A stretch of DNA of 64,000 nucleotides from Eubacteriales bacterium (GTDB taxonomy: Bacteria > Bacillota > Clostridia > Oscillospirales > Oscillospiraceae), in the NCBI GenBank assembly GCA_030536255.1, contig JAUNQI010000003.1, positions 1 to 64,000 on the forward strand, written 5' to 3'. Below the pieces are notes generated by a model. That model had not been told where the DNA came from, ran no database searches, and saw nothing but the letters and a program-made list of their open reading frames with translations. Position numbers and translations under genes: made by a program. This document shows positions 2,279 through 37,393 of the stretch, piece after piece (position 1 is the first letter of the stretch; every line of letters starts with the position of its first letter).

Positions 2279-2689
2279 TTACCCTTCCACTAGTTCTATC
2301 ATACCAACACCACGCTTGAAGAGAAAAACAACTCGCGAATAATCAAATGCCATTGCTTTGGCTGGCCTTTTCAAAACCATCCACCCCATTTTTTTTAACT
2401 GTTGTATTTGCTCTTCAAGATTATCAACTTGGTAACAGATATGATAGGGTCCTTCACCCTGTCTTCTTATAGTAAAAAAAACATCCGACTTCTCATCTAT
2501 CGGGCTTACCAACTCAACTCTGGTTGAATCATTACGAACAAAACATATGTATACGTTTCTAATAGTATTATTATCATCTGGTATGTTATCAATAAGTATC
2601 TCTGATTCCTGCACATACCCTATCTGTTCAAAGGCTTGTATAGATTTATTGATATCTGATGAGAGATACCCTATATGATCAACTGTCAT
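2279..2689 (-). CDS. VOC-superfamily (glyoxalase/epimerase-like) protein
   Basis: This is a 136-residue single-unit VOC-fold protein. It begins VDHIGYLSSDINKSI and continues with RVELVSPI, PYHICYQVDNLEEQI and GVGMIELVEG, the spacing of metal-ligand His/Glu positions seen in methylmalonyl-CoA epimerase-like proteins. It has a good ribosome binding site (AAAGGAG, 6 bases before ATG) and sits between the GNAT gene and pseI with almost no gap. It is not part of the standard pse pathway. Its place beside an acyl carrier protein and an FkbH-like protein suggests it works on an acyl group, for example epimerising or isomerising a carrier-bound hydroxyacyl unit. That role is inference. Confidence 0.72.
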   Translation of the reverse strand: MTVDHIGYLSSDINKSIQAFEQIGYVQESEILIDNIPDDNNTIRNVYICFVRNDSTRVELVSPIDEKSDVFFTIRRQGEGPYHICYQVDNLEEQIQQLKKMGWMVLKRPAKAMAFDYSRVVFLFKRGVGMIELVEG

Positions 2690-2700
2690 CGGCAGCTCCT

Positions 2701-3246
2701 TTACTCAAAATAAAATTTCTCATATTTTGTAGCTTCTCTCTTTACAAACCACTCCTCTGCTAAGATAGAGCCTACAGAAACATCGTGAAAGATACCATTT
2801 TTACATATTTGATCTCGCATAATCCCATCTTCTTTCCCACCGCACATAATGTGCATCTTGATTACCTGCTTGTTCTCTGCAAAGGTCTCATTGCAAAGCT
2901 TATGAAGCTTAAGTACATCAAAGACATAATCATATAAGCTCCACTCCAGACTGAGTGCAAGTTTCAAGGATCTAAAATTTTTCTCTGCAATGTAATAACC
3001 CCAGCTACACCTGGAATTCCTTCTGTCAATATCAAACACATTAATGAGACCAACAGGCGTTCCCTCAAAGTTTATAATCCAATAAATCTGATCATCTCTG
3101 TCTTTGATATAATTAAACCATGTTCGTTGCTTTTCAATAGTCAAAACTGGATCGGTATTCATATATTCCGTAACATACGGTCTCATGCGCCAATCCATAA
3201 CTAATTCAAGATTTTCCTCGCGAAGTCTGGTCATTACTACATCCAT
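2701..3246 (-). CDS. pseH: PseH-like GNAT N-acyltransferase
   Basis: This 181-residue RimJ/RimL-type GNAT begins with an RLREENLELVMDWR motif. It also has GLINVFDIDRRNSRCSWGYYIAEKNFR and a C-terminal LHKLCNETFAENKQVI region, as in UDP-4-amino-4,6-dideoxy-N-acetyl-altrosamine N-acetyltransferases. It should acylate N4 of the PseC product. Because an acyl carrier protein gene lies immediately upstream (12-base gap), it may take its acyl group from the carrier protein rather than, or as well as, acetyl-CoA. That is inference. The ribosome binding site AAGGAG is well placed. Confidence 0.8.
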   Translation of the reverse strand: MDVVMTRLREENLELVMDWRMRPYVTEYMNTDPVLTIEKQRTWFNYIKDRDDQIYWIINFEGTPVGLINVFDIDRRNSRCSWGYYIAEKNFRSLKLALSLEWSLYDYVFDVLKLHKLCNETFAENKQVIKMHIMCGGKEDGIMRDQICKNGIFHDVSVGSILAEEWFVKREATKYEKFYFE

Positions 3247-3258
3247 CGGAATTGCTCC

Positions 3259-3480
3259 TTATTTCTGCTGTGCACAGGCAATCAGTTCACCTATTGTTTC
3301 AACTTCAAGCGCCCGATCAAGAGGTATTTCAATATTATAGCTCTCTTCAAGTTCTGATATAAGCATAACAAATTGTAATGAATCAAAGCCTGGAATCTCT
3401 TTAATATTTGTTTCATCCTTAAAGAAGTCTACATCCTGTCCCATTACCGCAGACAGCGCTTCAATGATTTTTGGTTTCAT
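3259..3480 (-). CDS. Acyl carrier protein (standalone)
   Basis: This is a 73-residue acidic four-helix carrier protein. The phosphopantetheine site is GFDSLQFVMLI, with the modified serine at residue 34. It lies between the FkbH-like gene and the PseH-like gene in a tight same-strand run and has an AAGGAG ribosome binding site. Dedicated carrier proteins next to FkbH-like proteins usually receive a glyceryl group made from 1,3-bisphosphoglycerate (family knowledge). Here it is the likely shuttle between that loading enzyme and the GNAT or another acyltransferase of the locus. It is not in a fatty-acid gene context. Confidence 0.88.
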   Translation of the reverse strand: MKPKIIEALSAVMGQDVDFFKDETNIKEIPGFDSLQFVMLISELEESYNIEIPLDRALEVETIGELIACAQQK

Positions 3481-3497
3481 ATCGAATCACTCCTTAA

Positions 3498-5111
3498 TTA
3501 TCCATTTACAAAGAAAGTTCGTGCTGGACGATTTTGAAGATTAATCTCATAGTCCGTCTCTTCATCTGTTCTTGATATGACTCTATACCCAAGCCCATCG
3601 AACAGTTTCTCAACCGGTGCATTCTTTGCAGTTTTTAAATACTTCGCACGTAATACAGTATAACCCATGGAAAGAAAATCTCTCTCAACTTCATCTATAA
3701 TATAGTTCTCTATTAGCTTTCCCATTACACGGCAGCTCATAAGGAAAGAATTGATTTCAGCTTTCTCACAATCAACAATAGCTACAGCAACCAGACCGTA
3801 GTCACCAAACTTATCCTTTACATTATAGGCATAAATCTTATAGCCATCCTTCAACAGATGATCAATGTCCTGCCTAGTATACCTTATGGTAGTAAGGTTA
3901 AATTGATTTGTCTTCCCGTGCATCTGTGCGATACGGTCAAGTTTTGTATCATCCAAGTCAACTTTTTCTATTTCGAGGTTAAGCGATACTAGAAAATCCT
4001 GAAAAGACATCTTCTTAGATGATTCCTCACGCAACGCATTTTCTGCATACTGTTTAGTCTTTACTTTATCTTCCGCAGACGTCCTTGTTCGACGGAAATA
4101 ATCATTAAACACTGACTCCATAAATGCCGGATAATTCTCTATCTTATCCGGAAAATCAGGAACAATAACTTCTGGAAGTCTTAACTTAATATTTTCTCTC
4201 TCCGTAGCCGTATCGTCAATAAAAACGAATGAATCTACTCCCAGATTTAATTCTTTGGCGATTTCCTGAATATTATCTGCTTTATCTACCCAATTTATTT
4301 TTACTGAAACAAAATCATTCCTTTTCAGAAACATATATGGTTGTTTGTCCCATACTTCCTTCACATCAGATTCATTATTTTTGGATACAATTGCAAGAAT
4401 TATGCCTGTTTCTTTGATAGCTTTGATCTGTTGCTGAACTGTCTTATAAATGGATCCAATATGATTGTCAGATAATTCAATGCCATCAACACCGAGTTCG
4501 CCAAGCACTCCACCCCAGAGCGTATTATCTAAATCTAATACAAGCACTTTCTTTGGTGTTCTGTTAAGTAAACTTACTGTGTTTTCTATCTCTTCAGCAA
4601 TCACTTTGCAGCCTTCATTCGTATATGGAATTTTCCCCATATACCACATTTTCTTTGAAAAAGCTGCAGCTTTACCAATTCTATATATTGCATTATTTAT
4701 TTTCAGCACATGTATATTTGTATGCCTTAAAACTCTTTTCTCAAGTTGATTTGACCAGAAGTTTATAATTCTTTCTTCTAGGAACGAGTCATTGTCTGAC
4801 AGCACCTCAGATCGAAACATTACATCTGAGATATAATAATCTTTCCTTGCTTCAACAACGGTGTCCAAAGCTAAATACCATTCATCAATAGCTTTTACCG
4901 CACAATCATAGTCCAAATATCCAGCAACTAATTGCTCAATGTCTGTAAGCAATACGACTACATCCGGATTTGAACGATTCAAGCTGGAATTCGAATCAAG
5001 CAATTGTCCCCATACATCACCATACCCGACTGATGGGACACAATCCATTTTTTTAGCCAATAAGCGCAAAACGAAATCAGCATTAATGTTTGACAGCAAT
5101 GCAACCTTCAC
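3498..5111 (-). CDS. FkbH-like HAD-IIIC protein with C-terminal GNAT domain
   Basis: The protein has 537 residues in three parts. An N-terminal SGNH-like region spans about 1-180. A HAD domain follows with LVLDLDNTLWGG (Asp193 and Asp195), IVSKNNE and VFIDDTATE motifs. A GNAT-like domain from about 370 contains FGDYGLVAVAIV. FkbH-type proteins dephosphorylate 1,3-bisphosphoglycerate and load the glyceryl group on a carrier protein. The adjacent carrier protein gene fits this. The start is GTG at 5111 with AAGGAG eight bases upstream. Its position between pseF and the carrier protein gene ties it to pseudaminic acid or to the glycan that carries it. Substrate is inferred from the family. Confidence 0.85.
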   Translation of the reverse strand: MKVALLSNINADFVLRLLAKKMDCVPSVGYGDVWGQLLDSNSSLNRSNPDVVVLLTDIEQLVAGYLDYDCAVKAIDEWYLALDTVVEARKDYYISDVMFRSEVLSDNDSFLEERIINFWSNQLEKRVLRHTNIHVLKINNAIYRIGKAAAFSKKMWYMGKIPYTNEGCKVIAEEIENTVSLLNRTPKKVLVLDLDNTLWGGVLGELGVDGIELSDNHIGSIYKTVQQQIKAIKETGIILAIVSKNNESDVKEVWDKQPYMFLKRNDFVSVKINWVDKADNIQEIAKELNLGVDSFVFIDDTATERENIKLRLPEVIVPDFPDKIENYPAFMESVFNDYFRRTRTSAEDKVKTKQYAENALREESSKKMSFQDFLVSLNLEIEKVDLDDTKLDRIAQMHGKTNQFNLTTIRYTRQDIDHLLKDGYKIYAYNVKDKFGDYGLVAVAIVDCEKAEINSFLMSCRVMGKLIENYIIDEVERDFLSMGYTVLRAKYLKTAKNAPVEKLFDGLGYRVISRTDEETDYEINLQNRPARTFFVNG

Positions 5112-5126
5112 AATTAGGACTCCTTA

Positions 5127-5816
5127 TCAGCAGTTAAACAACATGCCGTATTTCAGTTCAGCCATTTTCCAATCACTAAAATTATCGATATCTTGAACTA
5201 ACATTTCATCCATGATAAATGGGACAGTATTATTTGTTATCAGTTTTTTCTCTTCTTTAAACTCTTTCACCCTAAACATACTGAACGATCCACAGTCATG
5301 ATACATTTTCTCAATATCCTGAGAACGGGTATTCAGATACTCAGGTTGCGACATAACCAGCTTATTATTTCTGATATAAACACCTCGCTGTGGAGGAAAA
5401 GAAAATGCAACTACAGGAAGTAATGTCTGTGCGCTACTTTCTAGTATGGTGTCGTAGGCCTTATGCAAGGTTTCTGCTGTTATAAATGGTGCCGTCGGAT
5501 ACAGGCAACAACCCAAATCATAGCTTATACTAAGTTTCTCATATCTATCTATTACTTCCAGAAGAACATCCGACGTAGTAGCAAAATCATTGCTCGTAGC
5601 TGCAGATCTCATAAATGGGACTTCTGCTCCATATTTTCTTGCGACCTCAGCTATCTCTTCGCTGTCTGTACTTACCATAACCTCATCGAATATATCCGCT
5701 TTTAACGCGGCTTCAATGCTATAAGCAATAATTGGCTTTCCGCAAAAATCTTTTATATTCTTCTTTGGAATTCTTTTACTGCCACCGCGAGCAGTAATAA
5801 TAGCTATATTTGTCAT
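5127..5816 (-). CDS. pseF: PseF: pseudaminic acid cytidylyltransferase
   Basis: PseF activates pseudaminic acid with CTP to CMP-pseudaminic acid. The 229-residue protein starts with the nucleotide-binding AIITARGGSKRIPKKNI motif of the CMP-sugar synthetase family. It also has FCGKPIIAYSIEAAL, DEVMVSTDSEEIAEVA and the C-terminal DIDNFSDWKMAELKY stretch. Its length matches PseF. It lies between pseC (6-base gap) and the FkbH-like gene (15-base gap), in a single run. Confidence 0.93.
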   Translation of the reverse strand: MTNIAIITARGGSKRIPKKNIKDFCGKPIIAYSIEAALKADIFDEVMVSTDSEEIAEVARKYGAEVPFMRSAATSNDFATTSDVLLEVIDRYEKLSISYDLGCCLYPTAPFITAETLHKAYDTILESSAQTLLPVVAFSFPPQRGVYIRNNKLVMSQPEYLNTRSQDIEKMYHDCGSFSMFRVKEFKEEKKLITNNTVPFIMDEMLVQDIDNFSDWKMAELKYGMLFNC

Positions 5817-5822
5817 CTCTTC

Positions 5823-7016
5823 TCACTTCCTGTAATAGCAGATTACTTTTTTCACTGCTTCAACAACTTTGTTCTGATCCTCGTTAGTCATGGAATAGAA
5901 CAACGGTATTGAGATAATTCGTTCATATAATTTCTCCGCATTAGGACAGCTTCCCATCTTATAACCGAGCTTTTGATAATGTGGAAAAAAATAAGCCGGA
6001 ATATAGTGAACGTTTACTCCAACGCCCTCCGCCTGAAGTGCATCGAAAACTTCTTTTCTTCCCCCCTTCAACATCTCTGTATTCAGTTGGATGATGTAAA
6101 GATGGCGAACCGTATCAGACTGTGGAATCTCCTTCTGTACAGTAATTTCCGGAATAGGATTAAACATTTCATCATAACATTTAACCAGTTCTTTCCTTCT
6201 TGCTGCAAACATATCCAGTTTATTAAGCTGAGAAGAGAGAAGTGCAGCCTGCATGTCAGTCATACGATAATTATATCCAAGATCTATCTGCTGATAGTAC
6301 CAGCCGCCTTCACTCGGTTTGTCCATCCAGTCCTGAATTCTGGTAATCCCATGAGTTCGGAAAAGTAAGAGTTTTTTATAGAGCTCATCATCATTTGTAG
6401 TAATTGCACCCCCCTCCCCAGCAGTACATGTCTTCACGGGATGAAAACTAAATTCAGTCATGTCTGCTAGAGATCCCACTGGCTTTCCATCGTATTTTGT
6501 TCCCAGTGAATGTGCAGCATCCTCAATAAATATTAGTCCGTATTTATCACAGATATCTCTGATTCTCTGAATCTCAACTGCCTGTCCGGTAAAATCTACT
6601 GCAACAACAGCCTTGGTTTTGTCTGTGATGCAGTTCTCAATACTATCAGGATTAATATTATAGGTTTCTGGATTGATATCAGCGAAGACTGGTCTGCCTC
6701 CACAATATAAAGCACAGTTTGCAGAAGCTGCGAAAGTAAGAGGTGTGGTTATCACTTCATCGCCTGGCCCTATTCCAGCTGCAAAACAAGTCGCATGCAA
6801 AGCCGCAGTCCCATTGGCAATCAGGACTGCATGCTTTGCTCCTGTAATTTTACAAAGCTTTGCTTCTGCCTCATCAATTTTGGGACCGCAGGTCAGGAAA
6901 TCACTCTTTAGCACATCAACGACAGCCTCAATATCTGCATCGTCGATGTACTGACGGCCATAGCCTAGTTTTTTATCAAATACCGGCTTTCCGCCAAACA
7001 AAGCTAGTTCGCTCAT
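5823..7016 (-). CDS. pseC: PseC: UDP-4-amino-4,6-dideoxy-N-acetyl-beta-L-altrosamine transaminase
   Basis: This is a DegT/DnrJ/EryC1 aminotransferase, second enzyme of the pathway. The PLP lysine is in FHPVKTCTAGEGGA (Lys195 from the chosen start). ANGTAALHAT, the IEDAAHSLG aspartate and the C-terminal substrate loop are all present. I place the start at ATG 7016, giving MSELALFGGKPVF, because GGAGG stands six bases upstream. The longer frame begins at TTG 7034, overlapping the pseB stop, and has no ribosome binding site. Confidence 0.93.
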   Translation of the reverse strand: MSELALFGGKPVFDKKLGYGRQYIDDADIEAVVDVLKSDFLTCGPKIDEAEAKLCKITGAKHAVLIANGTAALHATCFAAGIGPGDEVITTPLTFAASANCALYCGGRPVFADINPETYNINPDSIENCITDKTKAVVAVDFTGQAVEIQRIRDICDKYGLIFIEDAAHSLGTKYDGKPVGSLADMTEFSFHPVKTCTAGEGGAITTNDDELYKKLLLFRTHGITRIQDWMDKPSEGGWYYQQIDLGYNYRMTDMQAALLSSQLNKLDMFAARRKELVKCYDEMFNPIPEITVQKEIPQSDTVRHLYIIQLNTEMLKGGRKEVFDALQAEGVGVNVHYIPAYFFPHYQKLGYKMGSCPNAEKLYERIISIPLFYSMTNEDQNKVVEAVKKVICYYRK

Positions 7017-8125: not shown

Positions 8126-9511
8126 TTAAAAGATTTCTTTACGTTTTACAATCTTAATTAAAATATATATTCCTAAAGAAGCTGCCAAAATCCATCTAAT
8201 AAACCAAAGTTCCCGCGTTAACCAGTACAAAATGCAAGTTCCGCACACTGACAAGAATCCAGGAATAAGTTCCATAAACCTAAAGGGAAATTCTCCTGGA
8301 TTTATGCGTATTGCGCTGATGAAATGAAAACCAAACTGAAGCCCATGCGAAACTGCAGTAGCAATAACAGCACCTTGAATACCCCATAATTTTATGAAAG
8401 CATAGTTAAGGACTATATTGCATATTGCTGCCAATGTGGTTCCTAAAGCAATTGTCTTCGTCTTCTTGTAATAAAATTCATAGTTTACCGGGAAACTATA
8501 CAAGAAAATAAAATAATAACCGATTGAAAACAGGGGAATTAAATCGGTTCCTTCCCAAAAGCTCTGCTTTGCATAGATATGAAAAACTTCCCGAGCCAAC
8601 AAGATAAATCCCATCGTAATAATCGTAAAAAGCTCGATGTAGTTCTTTGCGTGTTTTTTCATCTCATCAATTTGATTTTGACGAGTATACTCGTAATAAA
8701 AAGGTACCCAGCTGTTATTAAAAGCGCTCCATATTGTGTTCAATACCGCCCCAAAAGTGCACGACAATGCGTAAATCCCCGTTGCAGAATTGCTGACCAT
8801 ACCTTGAAGCATCACTTTGTCACTTTGATTCAGAACTATGTTAGCAAGCAGATGGAAAACAGTTGGAATCGCTACTGGGAGGGTGAATTTCCAGTATTCT
8901 TTATTTACAACCGTCTTTCCGGTCTTTACTATGTAGGCAAACAAAATCAGACCAATTGCCGTATATACAGCTGATTGACCAATAAGACGCCCCCAATAAT
9001 TTTTCTCTGCCGGAAAAGCTTTTATCATCAAAATTGATAAGCCAATAGTTAATACTGAAGTTGTAACTGAAAGGATAAAATTCTTATCAGCCTTAAACTC
9101 ATAAGTGAACTTTAAATTCATAAATGAGATGCAATATAAACCCCAGCCGTGTAAAAGTCCAAGAAGAACCATGGGAATATTGACGTCAAACCATTTAGAA
9201 ACAATGGAAACAATCAGTACAGTTAAAACTGAAAAAAAGAGATAAAATATCGTAGCCAAGCTTAAAACGCTTGACTGGTATCGGGCCTGATCTTCTATCG
9301 GGAAGTTCACTCTGGCAAGTGATACTGTTCCAGCTGCCTGCAAAGGAAATACTGTAGAAGCAAGCTGTACCCAAGTCAGATATACGGAAGCAATTCCGTA
9401 GTTGTCCGTTCCAAGCATTCCAGAAAAAATAGGCCCAGAGAAAAAGGCCAGGCCTTGAAGGACAATTGTACTTGCAATATTAAAAATCGTGATTTTGTTT
9501 CTACTTTTAAT
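8126..9511 (-). CDS. Wzx-type oligosaccharide flippase, apparent ATT start
   Basis: This is a multi-spanning membrane protein of the MATE/polysaccharide-transport superfamily, expected to flip a lipid-linked glycan. ATG-only reading would begin at 9418 (MLGTDNYG), which cuts off the first transmembrane helix. The frame stays open upstream, and its translation (KITIFNIASTIVLQGLAFF, then SGPIFSG) is a normal Wzx N-terminus. No ATG, GTG or TTG occurs in that extension. The best-placed codon is ATT at 9511-9509, with GAGGAAG a few bases upstream. This gives 461 residues. Either the start is truly ATT, or an ATG has mutated or been mis-sequenced. It precedes the pse genes by about 100 bases. Confidence 0.8.
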   Translation of the reverse strand: MKSRNKITIFNIASTIVLQGLAFFSGPIFSGMLGTDNYGIASVYLTWVQLASTVFPLQAAGTVSLARVNFPIEDQARYQSSVLSLATIFYLFFSVLTVLIVSIVSKWFDVNIPMVLLGLLHGWGLYCISFMNLKFTYEFKADKNFILSVTTSVLTIGLSILMIKAFPAEKNYWGRLIGQSAVYTAIGLILFAYIVKTGKTVVNKEYWKFTLPVAIPTVFHLLANIVLNQSDKVMLQGMVSNSATGIYALSCTFGAVLNTIWSAFNNSWVPFYYEYTRQNQIDEMKKHAKNYIELFTIITMGFILLAREVFHIYAKQSFWEGTDLIPLFSIGYYFIFLYSFPVNYEFYYKKTKTIALGTTLAAICNIVLNYAFIKLWGIQGAVIATAVSHGLQFGFHFISAIRINPGEFPFRFMELIPGFLSVCGTCILYWLTRELWFIRWILAASLGIYILIKIVKRKEIF

Positions 9512-9548
9512 TGTAAAACTTCCTCTCTTGATTTAAGAAAAAATTAAT

Positions 9549-9601
9549 AATCTAATTTGTTTTCCAGAAAATGTGCCCATTCTGAAAAACAAATTAAGAT
9601 T
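9549..9601 (-). terminator. Long inverted repeat, probable terminator or attenuator before wzx
   Basis: Arms at about 9549-9569 and 9580-9601 pair nearly perfectly (outer AATCT/AGATT, inner AATTTGTTTT/AAAACAAATT, then CAGAA/TTCTG). On the minus strand the hairpin is followed by a U-rich run (AATTTTTTCTT). It lies after the DUF115 gene and only about 40 bases before the wzx start. It could therefore end the upstream transcript or partly limit read-through into wzx-pse. Confidence 0.55.
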
Positions 9602-9801
9602 ATAACAACAATTACATTTCTGCGAGCAAAGGCAATACTGTTGAAACCATCTAAACCTTTGTATAATCTAATGGAATCAAAAAAACGTAAAAGATGGGAA
9701 CAAAAATATTGGCATATTAATAAATCTTGAAACAAGTATCATTCCCACGAAAAGTCAAACTGAGAATAGTTAATCGTGCTATTTTGATGCTTTTCTCATT
9801 T

Positions 9802-10698
9802 TTATTGATTATACGTATTCTCTATTCCCGCTCTTTCCCGTGGAAACAAGGATTCATAATCCACTCTCTCAAAAGCATCCAATACACCACCAGAAGTCGC
9901 ATTATATATCAGGATATTCCTTTTTCGTGCTATTTGATTCATTAGTCTATACTGTACAAACATATTATAAAACCCTTCGAAAAAAGATTCCGCATCAATT
10001 CTACTGTGAGTTTCATGTATCATTTTTTTCTCTTTTTCATCCATCCGATAGACATGAAGATCAACCTCTTTCCCTGCTGCTGAAGATAATTGTTCATAAC
10101 CTGTCATATCACAGCCAATAAGGTATATTTTATTAAATCCCATAAAAATTGCAATCATAATTGCATAAAGTACAACATTTGAAAAACCTGGAACTATTTT
10201 TGTCAGATTCATTTCAGCTGAAAAGCCATCAGAGAGTGTATAGCCACTGTCAATATAATAGAATTTCAGATCTTTATCAATTTTATTTTGCTCAATGGAC
10301 TGTTTTGCATTGAATTGAGCAAAACATATCGGATTAATACCATTTATCTTAATGTTATTAAGATATTGTTTTTTTTCTTCTCCAAACGTACCAGTAAAAT
10401 CAAATATAGCTGGATCCATCAGCACATGATAATTACTCTTCACAAGTGGATATAAATCTGATTTAGGAAAATAATTCACTGTAAAAACATATTCGTCTTT
10501 TAGAAGAGCAAGATTCTGCTTTCTCAGGGAAGGACCATTTCCAACAATAAAGCACCTTTCTCCATTATGAATATTGCTTAAAACCAAATTATTTCTTAGG
10601 ATTGTTCTTTTTTCTCTTTCATACAAAAATTGTATATCCTTGTAATGCTTCACCATCCGGTTTTTCATAAGAAAATATAATTTGTCAAACTTATCCAT
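9802..10698 (-). CDS. DUF115/GT42-like protein, candidate pseudaminyl- or sialyltransferase
   Basis: The protein has 298 residues. The core begins CFIVGNGPSLRKQNLALLKDEYVFTVN, continues with a middle YYIDSGYTLSDGF, and ends with YAIMIAIFMGFNKIYLIGCDMTGYE. This pattern is shared by DUF115 (MptE-like, Maf flagellin-glycosylation factors) and GT42 sialyltransferases, whose IAGNGPSL and LGxxxIYLxGID motifs are similar (family knowledge). No other obvious transferase for CMP-pseudaminic acid exists in the window, so this is the best candidate to attach the sugar. It follows the hexapeptide acyltransferase gene with a 4-base gap. Function is inference. Confidence 0.6.
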   Translation of the reverse strand: MDKFDKLYFLMKNRMVKHYKDIQFLYEREKRTILRNNLVLSNIHNGERCFIVGNGPSLRKQNLALLKDEYVFTVNYFPKSDLYPLVKSNYHVLMDPAIFDFTGTFGEEKKQYLNNIKINGINPICFAQFNAKQSIEQNKIDKDLKFYYIDSGYTLSDGFSAEMNLTKIVPGFSNVVLYAIMIAIFMGFNKIYLIGCDMTGYEQLSSAAGKEVDLHVYRMDEKEKKMIHETHSRIDAESFFEGFYNMFVQYRLMNQIARKRNILIYNATSGGVLDAFERVDYESLFPRERAGIENTYNQ

Positions 10699-36883: not shown

Positions 36884-36912
36884 TTGCTTTTTTGTTTCTT
36901 ATGTTGTATTAT
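36884..36912 (+). promoter_or_regulatory. Promoter of the double-glycine LysM peptide gene
   Basis: TTGCTT (36884-36889), 17 bases, TATTAT (36907-36912). The resulting leader is about 195 bases, AT-rich, with small inverted repeats (for example AAGAC/GTCTT just before the gene). The 36814-37114 gap holds nothing else recognised. Confidence 0.6.
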
Positions 36913-37114
36913 GTCTACTGTAAGGTGCGTGCTGATTGTTTCAGCGGTGCAGAGGGTTGAAGAAAGCTTCTGAAAGCGGTTTTCAAATGCTTTTTCAAAA
37001 AATAAAAATTTTTTGGAAATCTGTAACGTTTCTTTTTCCGGTGCGTACTTTGTAGTGTAAGACAAAAACAAAGTCTTAAAAATTAAAAACATTTTTTAAA
37101 GGAGAAATAAAATC

Positions 37115-37333
37115 ATGACAGAACTCAACGAACTCGAACTCACCAACGTATCCGGTGGACAGTACAATGGCCCTGTATTCAGATACACCATTAACTGGGG
37201 CGACACCCTTTCCGGCATCGCAGTAAAGTATAAGACCACCGTCGCTGTTCTGATGGAGCTCAACCCCAATGAGATCAAGAACCCCGACAAGATCTACGCC
37301 GGCCACACCATTCTTGTTCCTTACACCAAGTAA
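37115..37333 (+). CDS. Double-glycine-leader LysM mini-protein
   Basis: The 72 residues start MTELNELELTNVSGG, a class-II bacteriocin-type leader with conserved Leu/Glu/Leu/Val spacing and Gly14-Gly15. They continue with one complete LysM domain (about 23-70: GDTLSGIAVKYKTTVAVLMELNP, then YAGHTILVPY). There is no Sec signal. Family knowledge says such leaders are cut after GG by C39-peptidase ABC exporters; none lies in the window. The mature product would be a roughly 57-residue peptidoglycan- or chitin-binding domain released outside. Strong AAAGGAG site, own promoter and strong terminator suggest high monocistronic expression. Confidence 0.85.
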   Translation: MTELNELELTNVSGGQYNGPVFRYTINWGDTLSGIAVKYKTTVAVLMELNPNEIKNPDKIYAGHTILVPYTK

Positions 37334-37351
37334 GACAATATCTGAAAAATT

Positions 37352-37379
37352 ATCGCACAGAGAAAATTCTCTGTGCGAT
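37352..37379. terminator. Bidirectional intrinsic terminator
   Basis: A stem of at least 11 bp (ATCGCACAGAG with CTCTGTGCGAT) is followed on the plus strand by eight Ts and on the minus strand by ATTTTTC. It separates the converging LysM peptide gene and malQ. Confidence 0.92.
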
Positions 37380-37393
37380 TTTTTTATTCCGAA

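Follow-up and report, generated by a model that had tools for sequence, protein, structure and literature searches.

A solitary LysM gene with a double-glycine leader

Within the window, the whole 64-kb stretch of DNA analysed here, a solitary ORF at 37115-37333 (+) is flanked by glnA and malQ on either side. It starts with an ATG at 37115, comprises 72 codons and is preceded by a ribosome-binding site, AAAGGAGA, located by sequence reading (37098-37105, +) and rated good. An intrinsic terminator follows at 37352-37386, its perfect 12-bp stem and T-run occupying 37352-37379, also scoring on the - strand, where it faces malQ; the strong terminator noted in the preliminary description of this DNA was thereby corroborated. 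Inspection of the locus in the window revealed no adjacent immunity gene, and the 72-aa precursor carries no Sec signal.

The first 15 residues (37115-37159, +) form a double-glycine (GG) leader, MTELNELELTNVSGG, recognised from the sequence, the published C39 recognition pattern and a leader profile. From -12 onwards the sequence of the leader is L(-12) N E L E(-8) L(-7) T N V(-4) S G G, and thus contains the full C39 recognition pattern (L-12, E-8, L-7, V-4, G-2 and G-1). The leader consensus of ComA and LahT consists of Leu-12, Glu-8 and Leu-7, with pockets that take Val-4, Leu-7 and Leu-12 (PMC6363468), and the -12/-8/-7/-4 pattern has also been described for MAM (PMC12184118). We regarded GG (or GA/GS) preceded by hydrophobic residues at -4, -7 and -12 and by Glu at -8 as the mark of a C39-exporter substrate, and the ORF possesses every element. 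The curated model for class II bacteriocin leaders, TIGR01847 (bacteriocin_sig), gave ELNELELTNVSGG 14.3 bits, slightly below its cut-off of 15.7, and the 15-residue leader matched none of the long Nif11- or NHase-type families that define Nif11/NHLP RiPP precursors.

In a GG-peptide search of the genome that combined profile and pattern searches, ELNELELTNVSGG was the top own-genome match (E 1.6e-6) to a leader profile built from 20 rows, of which it was itself one. GG is invariant across 23 aligned relatives and the most strongly conserved element of the family alignment, in which the recognition residues are retained; it also stands ahead of the LysM domain in all 30 distinct small LysM ORFs among the genus hits. 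In a set of 56 distinct leaders from GG peptides of the LysM type, selected on a fixed GG at -2/-1 and restricted -4 and -7, the unselected position -12 was L/I/M/V in 53 and the unselected position -8 was E/D in 40.

Cleavage after the leader would yield a predicted mature peptide of 57 residues starting QYNG (37160-37333 with the stop, +), with a computed mass of 6.46 kDa and pI of 9.1. Residues 24-69 (37184-37321, +) match the LysM family (PF01476, E 6.9e-14) over all 43 profile positions, at 52 bits against a gathering score of 20.9. An AlphaFold2 model, built from an alignment of 23 relatives, folds the LysM part as beta-alpha-alpha-beta (core pLDDT about 81-89), so that profile score and fold both identify a LysM domain, and leaves the leader mostly disordered. 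Foldseek neighbours of the model are LysM structures, for example CtCBM50 (7r1l, 46% identity), several of them solved with GlcNAc oligomers, and Ecp6 was the top match by both sequence and fold. We infer from the family that the mature peptide binds GlcNAc glycans. The join of a GG leader to one intact LysM domain, the central claim of the preliminary description, stands on the full recognition pattern and the complete profile match.

An ECF-type promoter motif shared by GG-leader ORFs

The gene had initially been assigned its own sigma-70 promoter and a long leader RNA, and neither was supported. A sigma-70 consensus scan of the locus gave an overall result at chance level, the site picked by eye (TTGCTT-17-TATTAT, 36884-36912) failed that scan, and an Rfam scan for a leader RNA or riboswitch returned 0 matches at gathering score (three hits were sub-threshold); on this Rfam result and the absence of sigma-70 support, the long leader RNA was rejected. 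An ECF-type site fits better. A predicted ECF-sigma promoter, TGTAAC-N16-CGTA, lies at 37022-37047 (+), about 67 nt ahead of the ATG, and is the single match to TGWAAC-N16-CGTA in the 64-kb window, where 0.12 would be expected. In Bacillus subtilis, ECF promoters of the SigW type read TGAAAC-N16-CGTA, and those of SigX and SigM carry TGTAAC. The site is likely the promoter of the ORF, which would give the transcript a short 5'UTR.

The same TGTAAC-N16-CGTA motif was found with a 94% identical paralog on contig C27, and a variant with a paralog on C35. Genome-wide, the core motif GTAACNTT-N13/14-CGTA has 20 matches, compared with 4 for the reversed control, and 18 of the 20 stand ahead of GG-leader ORFs, the exceptions being the copies on C14 and C44. 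Fourteen of these 18 motif-linked GG ORFs or operons were already on the leader-profile list, and four (C16, C19, C38 and C75) came to light only when the sequence downstream of the motif was read; those four, together with the present gene and its near-identical paralog, make 6 of the 18 pairs non-independent. The further GG-leader peptides for which a genome search had been proposed are present. As a sequence motif, the site has the features of an ECF promoter: an AAC-type -35, a CGTA-type -10, 16-17 nt between them and a gene set that shares it.

One copy of the motif, on C16, has an ECF sigma gene on one side and a GG-leader ORF on the other. In this interval (L295, G000:C16:33001-41000, G000 being the present assembly), sigma gene, motif and GG-leader ORF follow one another at 4206-5031, and the ORF has a 15-residue core, VASVNETAKNNWPEV, which could possibly be an exported signal peptide. 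Enrichment of the motif was confined to two of 102 genomes, the present one and G042, the latter with 7 matches, 5 of which stand ahead of GG ORFs (one on C56). Among the other genus members, G042 was again the only one found to have a gene closely orthologous (57-58%) to the C16 ECF sigma. Judging by the sequence and by the joint presence of motif and sigma ortholog in 2 of 102 genomes, the C16 ECF sigma probably reads the shared GG-peptide promoter. Since the motif precedes only 4 of the 99 GG ORFs in the genus set, two in the present genome and two in G042, ECF control appears to be lineage-limited. Genomes G052 and G017 carry a more distant ECF sigma gene, clustered with an exporter and with GG-CW_7-like and GG-LysM peptides.

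C39 exporters and the GG-LysM family in the genus

Two C39-peptidase ABC exporters were identified in the present assembly, on contigs C55 and C39. On C55, the peptidase-bearing ABC1 scores 932.2 against TIGR03796 (cut-off 853.3) and ABC2, without peptidase, 731.1 against TIGR03797 (cut-off 709.4); with both over their NCBIfam cut-offs, the block is, by profile, an NHLM-type ABC1/ABC2 pair. The HlyD-like protein of this block is short, scoring 28.9 against TIGR03794 (cut-off 156.2) over the first 69 positions only, and the full-length HlyD-type partner of an NHLM/NHLP block is accordingly lacking. No modification genes were recognised beside the exporter, and no ECF motif was found in the 350 nt scanned upstream of it. 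Over 145 residues its C39 domain shares 73.1% identity with LahT150, an enzyme that cleaves highly diverse precursors, whether the leader is of the Nif11 or NHLP kind or short, and that requires no more than the final 13 residues of the leader (PMC6363468). The exporter on contig C39, 34.6% identical to the C55 one and adjoining a Nif11 leader and a YcaO-type protein, was rejected as the partner. Its locus (L034, G000:C39:8001-28000), in which the exporter occurs with a Nif11-leader peptide (TIGR03798, 34.1 > 32.3) and the YcaO-type protein, is a probable RiPP cluster.

With the peptide as query, matches were returned by 49 of the 102 genus genomes searched, a few of which had LysM-only hits in long ORFs that were left out of the statistics. 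Among the matches listed, a C39 exporter lay at most 12 kb from the LysM match in 26 of 47 genomes, and these near-exporter matches, where read, were GG-leader peptides inside the exporter cluster. Exporter adjacency, usual but not obligatory for such substrates, is thus found in 26 relatives and is absent at the 37115-37333 locus. C39 was present in 43 of 44 GG-LysM genomes versus 23 of the 58 others (Fisher p 1.3e-10, uncorrected for kinship); this stricter table was used in place of a looser one (47/2/19/34) that also admitted some genomes whose LysM was confined to long ORFs, plus two with matches beyond those listed. Genome G021, which is 83% complete, has a GG-LysM ORF and no C39 match.

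The GG-LysM cluster of the relatives comprises STAS, HlyD-like, C39 ABC1 and ABC2 genes, the exporters sharing the architecture of the C55 pair (ABC1 65-69% identical); members that vary between genomes are a DUF218 protein, a response regulator, additional GG-LysM peptides and a GG-CW_7 peptide. The last of these, a sister GG peptide, has two CW_7 repeats (PF08230, E 3.6e-28). The preliminary description had made its export proposal depend on a C39-type exporter in the genome and on homologues that keep the GG leader, and on both counts the proposal survived: one of the two exporters is a full NHLM ABC1/ABC2 pair, and GG was retained by every aligned relative and every small LysM ORF.

The named relatives are rumen or gut MAGs labelled Ruminococcaceae, Oscillospiraceae, Clostridia or Eubacteriales, and by sequence the leader-LysM join is common within the genus. 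With a query representing mainly one subfamily, so that other leader-LysM subfamilies may be missed, neither 300 family genomes scanned at E<=1e-12 nor 391 class genomes scanned at E<=1e-16 yielded the join beyond the genus. Out-of-genus matches start within the LysM domain or slightly before it, for the most part in long frames, and a broad taxonomic spread of the join was rejected because the family and class scans yielded LysM-only matches. A phage origin of the LysM peptide was also rejected, as viral contigs contained no leader-LysM relative and gave LysM-only matches starting at residue 24-29. One LysM peptide, at L027 1495-1875, has two tandem GG-leader-like stretches ahead of its LysM domain.

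Proposed role, known systems and other GG-leader ORFs

We consider it reasonably probable that ORF 37115-37333 encodes an envelope peptide that is exported, binds peptidoglycan and serves as a dedicated NHLM-type exporter substrate within an ECF-controlled GG-peptide secretome. An ECF sigma, probably the one encoded on C16, would switch on about 18 GG-leader-peptide transcription units, this ORF among them. The C39 domain would dock the leader through L-12, E-8, L-7 and V-4 and cut after Gly-Gly, and the NHLM-type peptidase ABC exporter would release the 57-residue single-LysM peptide beyond the membrane, where it could bind the glycan chains of peptidoglycan, whether its own cell's or a neighbour's. 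Held in the wall, the peptide would act as a non-catalytic coat or tether rather than as a pore-forming bacteriocin. This reading is supported by the fit of the leader to the C39 consensus, the identity to LahT150, the exporter pair with its adjacency and co-occurrence in relatives, the CW_7 sister and the shared motif. Counting against it, the gene stands apart from any exporter in its own genome, the 350 nt scanned upstream of the C55 block are free of the motif, the HlyD-like subunit there is short and scores below cut-off, and G021 combines a GG-LysM ORF with no C39 match.

The same export and binding steps could instead serve a secreted LysM-only blocker, which would sequester glycan fragments or shield the producer wall from lytic enzymes in the manner of fungal LysM effectors. 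We regard this role as a tentative alternative: the LysM-only architecture and the top rank of Ecp6 in both sequence and fold are in keeping with it, as is an ECF-type promoter suggestive of an envelope-stress setting, but the likeness to Ecp6 is generic to LysM. Coat, tether and shield are all favoured over a weapon, since no immunity gene adjoins the ORF and the sister peptide carries wall-binding modules. Extended to the whole gene set, the wall-binding reading leads to a speculative picture that we hold rather unlikely, in which a sigma-controlled secretome uses the peptidase ABC exporter to ship LysM, CW_7 and other wall-binding modules singly to build or guard the envelope, and the C16 GG peptide with core VASVNETAKNNWPEV is an exported signal feeding back on the system.

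An antimicrobial class II-type bacteriocin, with the LysM docking on the wall of competitors, seems improbable. Its leader style, the membership of the C55 exporter in a bacteriocin-export family, the mildly cationic mature peptide (pI 9.1) and the bacteriocin-like short helix core of an own-genome GG peptide on C38 would suit such a function; the core, however, consists of an intact, folded LysM and lacks any additional killing module, the TIGR01847 score falls slightly under its cut-off, no immunity gene lies beside the ORF and the sister peptide likewise has binding modules only. The CW_7 sister and the missing immunity gene led us to prefer wall binding over an antimicrobial core, as the preliminary description had done, whereas its label of effector or adhesin is inseparable from a structural or protective role in the envelope. 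That the leader is vestigial and the protein cytoplasmic, like the E. coli LysM protein Kbp/YgaU, would agree with the lack of a Sec signal and with a gene unlinked to an exporter in its own genome, but is very improbable given the conservation of GG and of the recognition residues and the exporter adjacency in 26 genomes.

Among known systems, MAM of Faecalibacterium resembles the present peptide in its short GG leader at the N-terminus, its -12/-8/-7/-4 pattern and its PCAT partner (PMC12184118), and is likewise a non-bacteriocin envelope protein of a gut Bacillota lineage. Mature MAM is a three-helix core modelled as a hexameric lattice (PMC12184118), whereas the present peptide has a known wall-binding domain as its core and numerous paralogs; the MAM paper makes no mention of LysM (PMC12184118). 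By analogy, MAM is the nearest functional parallel. The NHLM/NHLP and Nif11 export systems (Haft 2010, PMC2887384) have the same pair of ABC1 (peptidase) and ABC2, but their classical substrates carry long NHase-/Nif11-related leaders and modified cores, unlike the 15-residue leader and folded domain described here, and the C55 block differs further in having no recognised neighbouring modification genes and a truncated HlyD-like part below cut-off. LahT of Lachnospiraceae C6A11 (PMC6363468), whose C39 domain is 73% identical to that of the present genome, also pairs one exporter with many GG-leader precursors; LahA peptides, however, are Nif11-type precursors in one cluster, whereas the putative substrates here are dispersed across the genome and share one promoter motif. 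From LysM proteins (PF01476), with which it shares the intact domain and fold, the peptide differs in its double-glycine leader.

Exporter, leader type and LysM domain are each known, and no published description of their combination was found: in the open-access literature, a scope that excludes most subscription papers, no paper joins LysM with a double-glycine leader or a PCAT, and among the few matches listed for open-access titles and abstracts none presents an ECF-sigma regulon of such peptides. C39-type exporters are usually taken as a sign of bacteriocins or peptide pheromones. If the envelope reading is true, they would also serve to assemble or defend the envelope, and many 'bacteriocin' assignments among gut and rumen Clostridia would have to be reinterpreted. 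The GG-LysM family would also offer a concrete case to set beside MAM of Faecalibacterium, for which export has so far been modelled.

Other GG-leader ORFs were noted across the genome. On C65 (L297, G000:C65:4001-14000), four such ORFs lie on the + strand at 4780-5979 with the ECF-type motif ahead, amid genes with PHROGs matches for a phage portal (6002-7948, -), others up to a major head protein (2678-3829, -) and a terminase (8569-9999); this looks like a GG-peptide cassette in a prophage. Similar GG ORFs on C9, C76 and C3 are near genes resembling those on C65. Several paralogous ORFs whose long, Nif11-like leader ends in GG were found on C69 (L296), C22, C78 and C5, those on C69, C22 and C78 having as core a similar beta-rich-looking stretch (PKYKVGQRVSIYFATT-like). 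On C38 (L167), a 43-aa GG-leader ORF at 1311-1442 has a bacteriocin-like core (ALSSQRGRAYEKLIKAILGFFGLK) and the ECF-type motif ahead.
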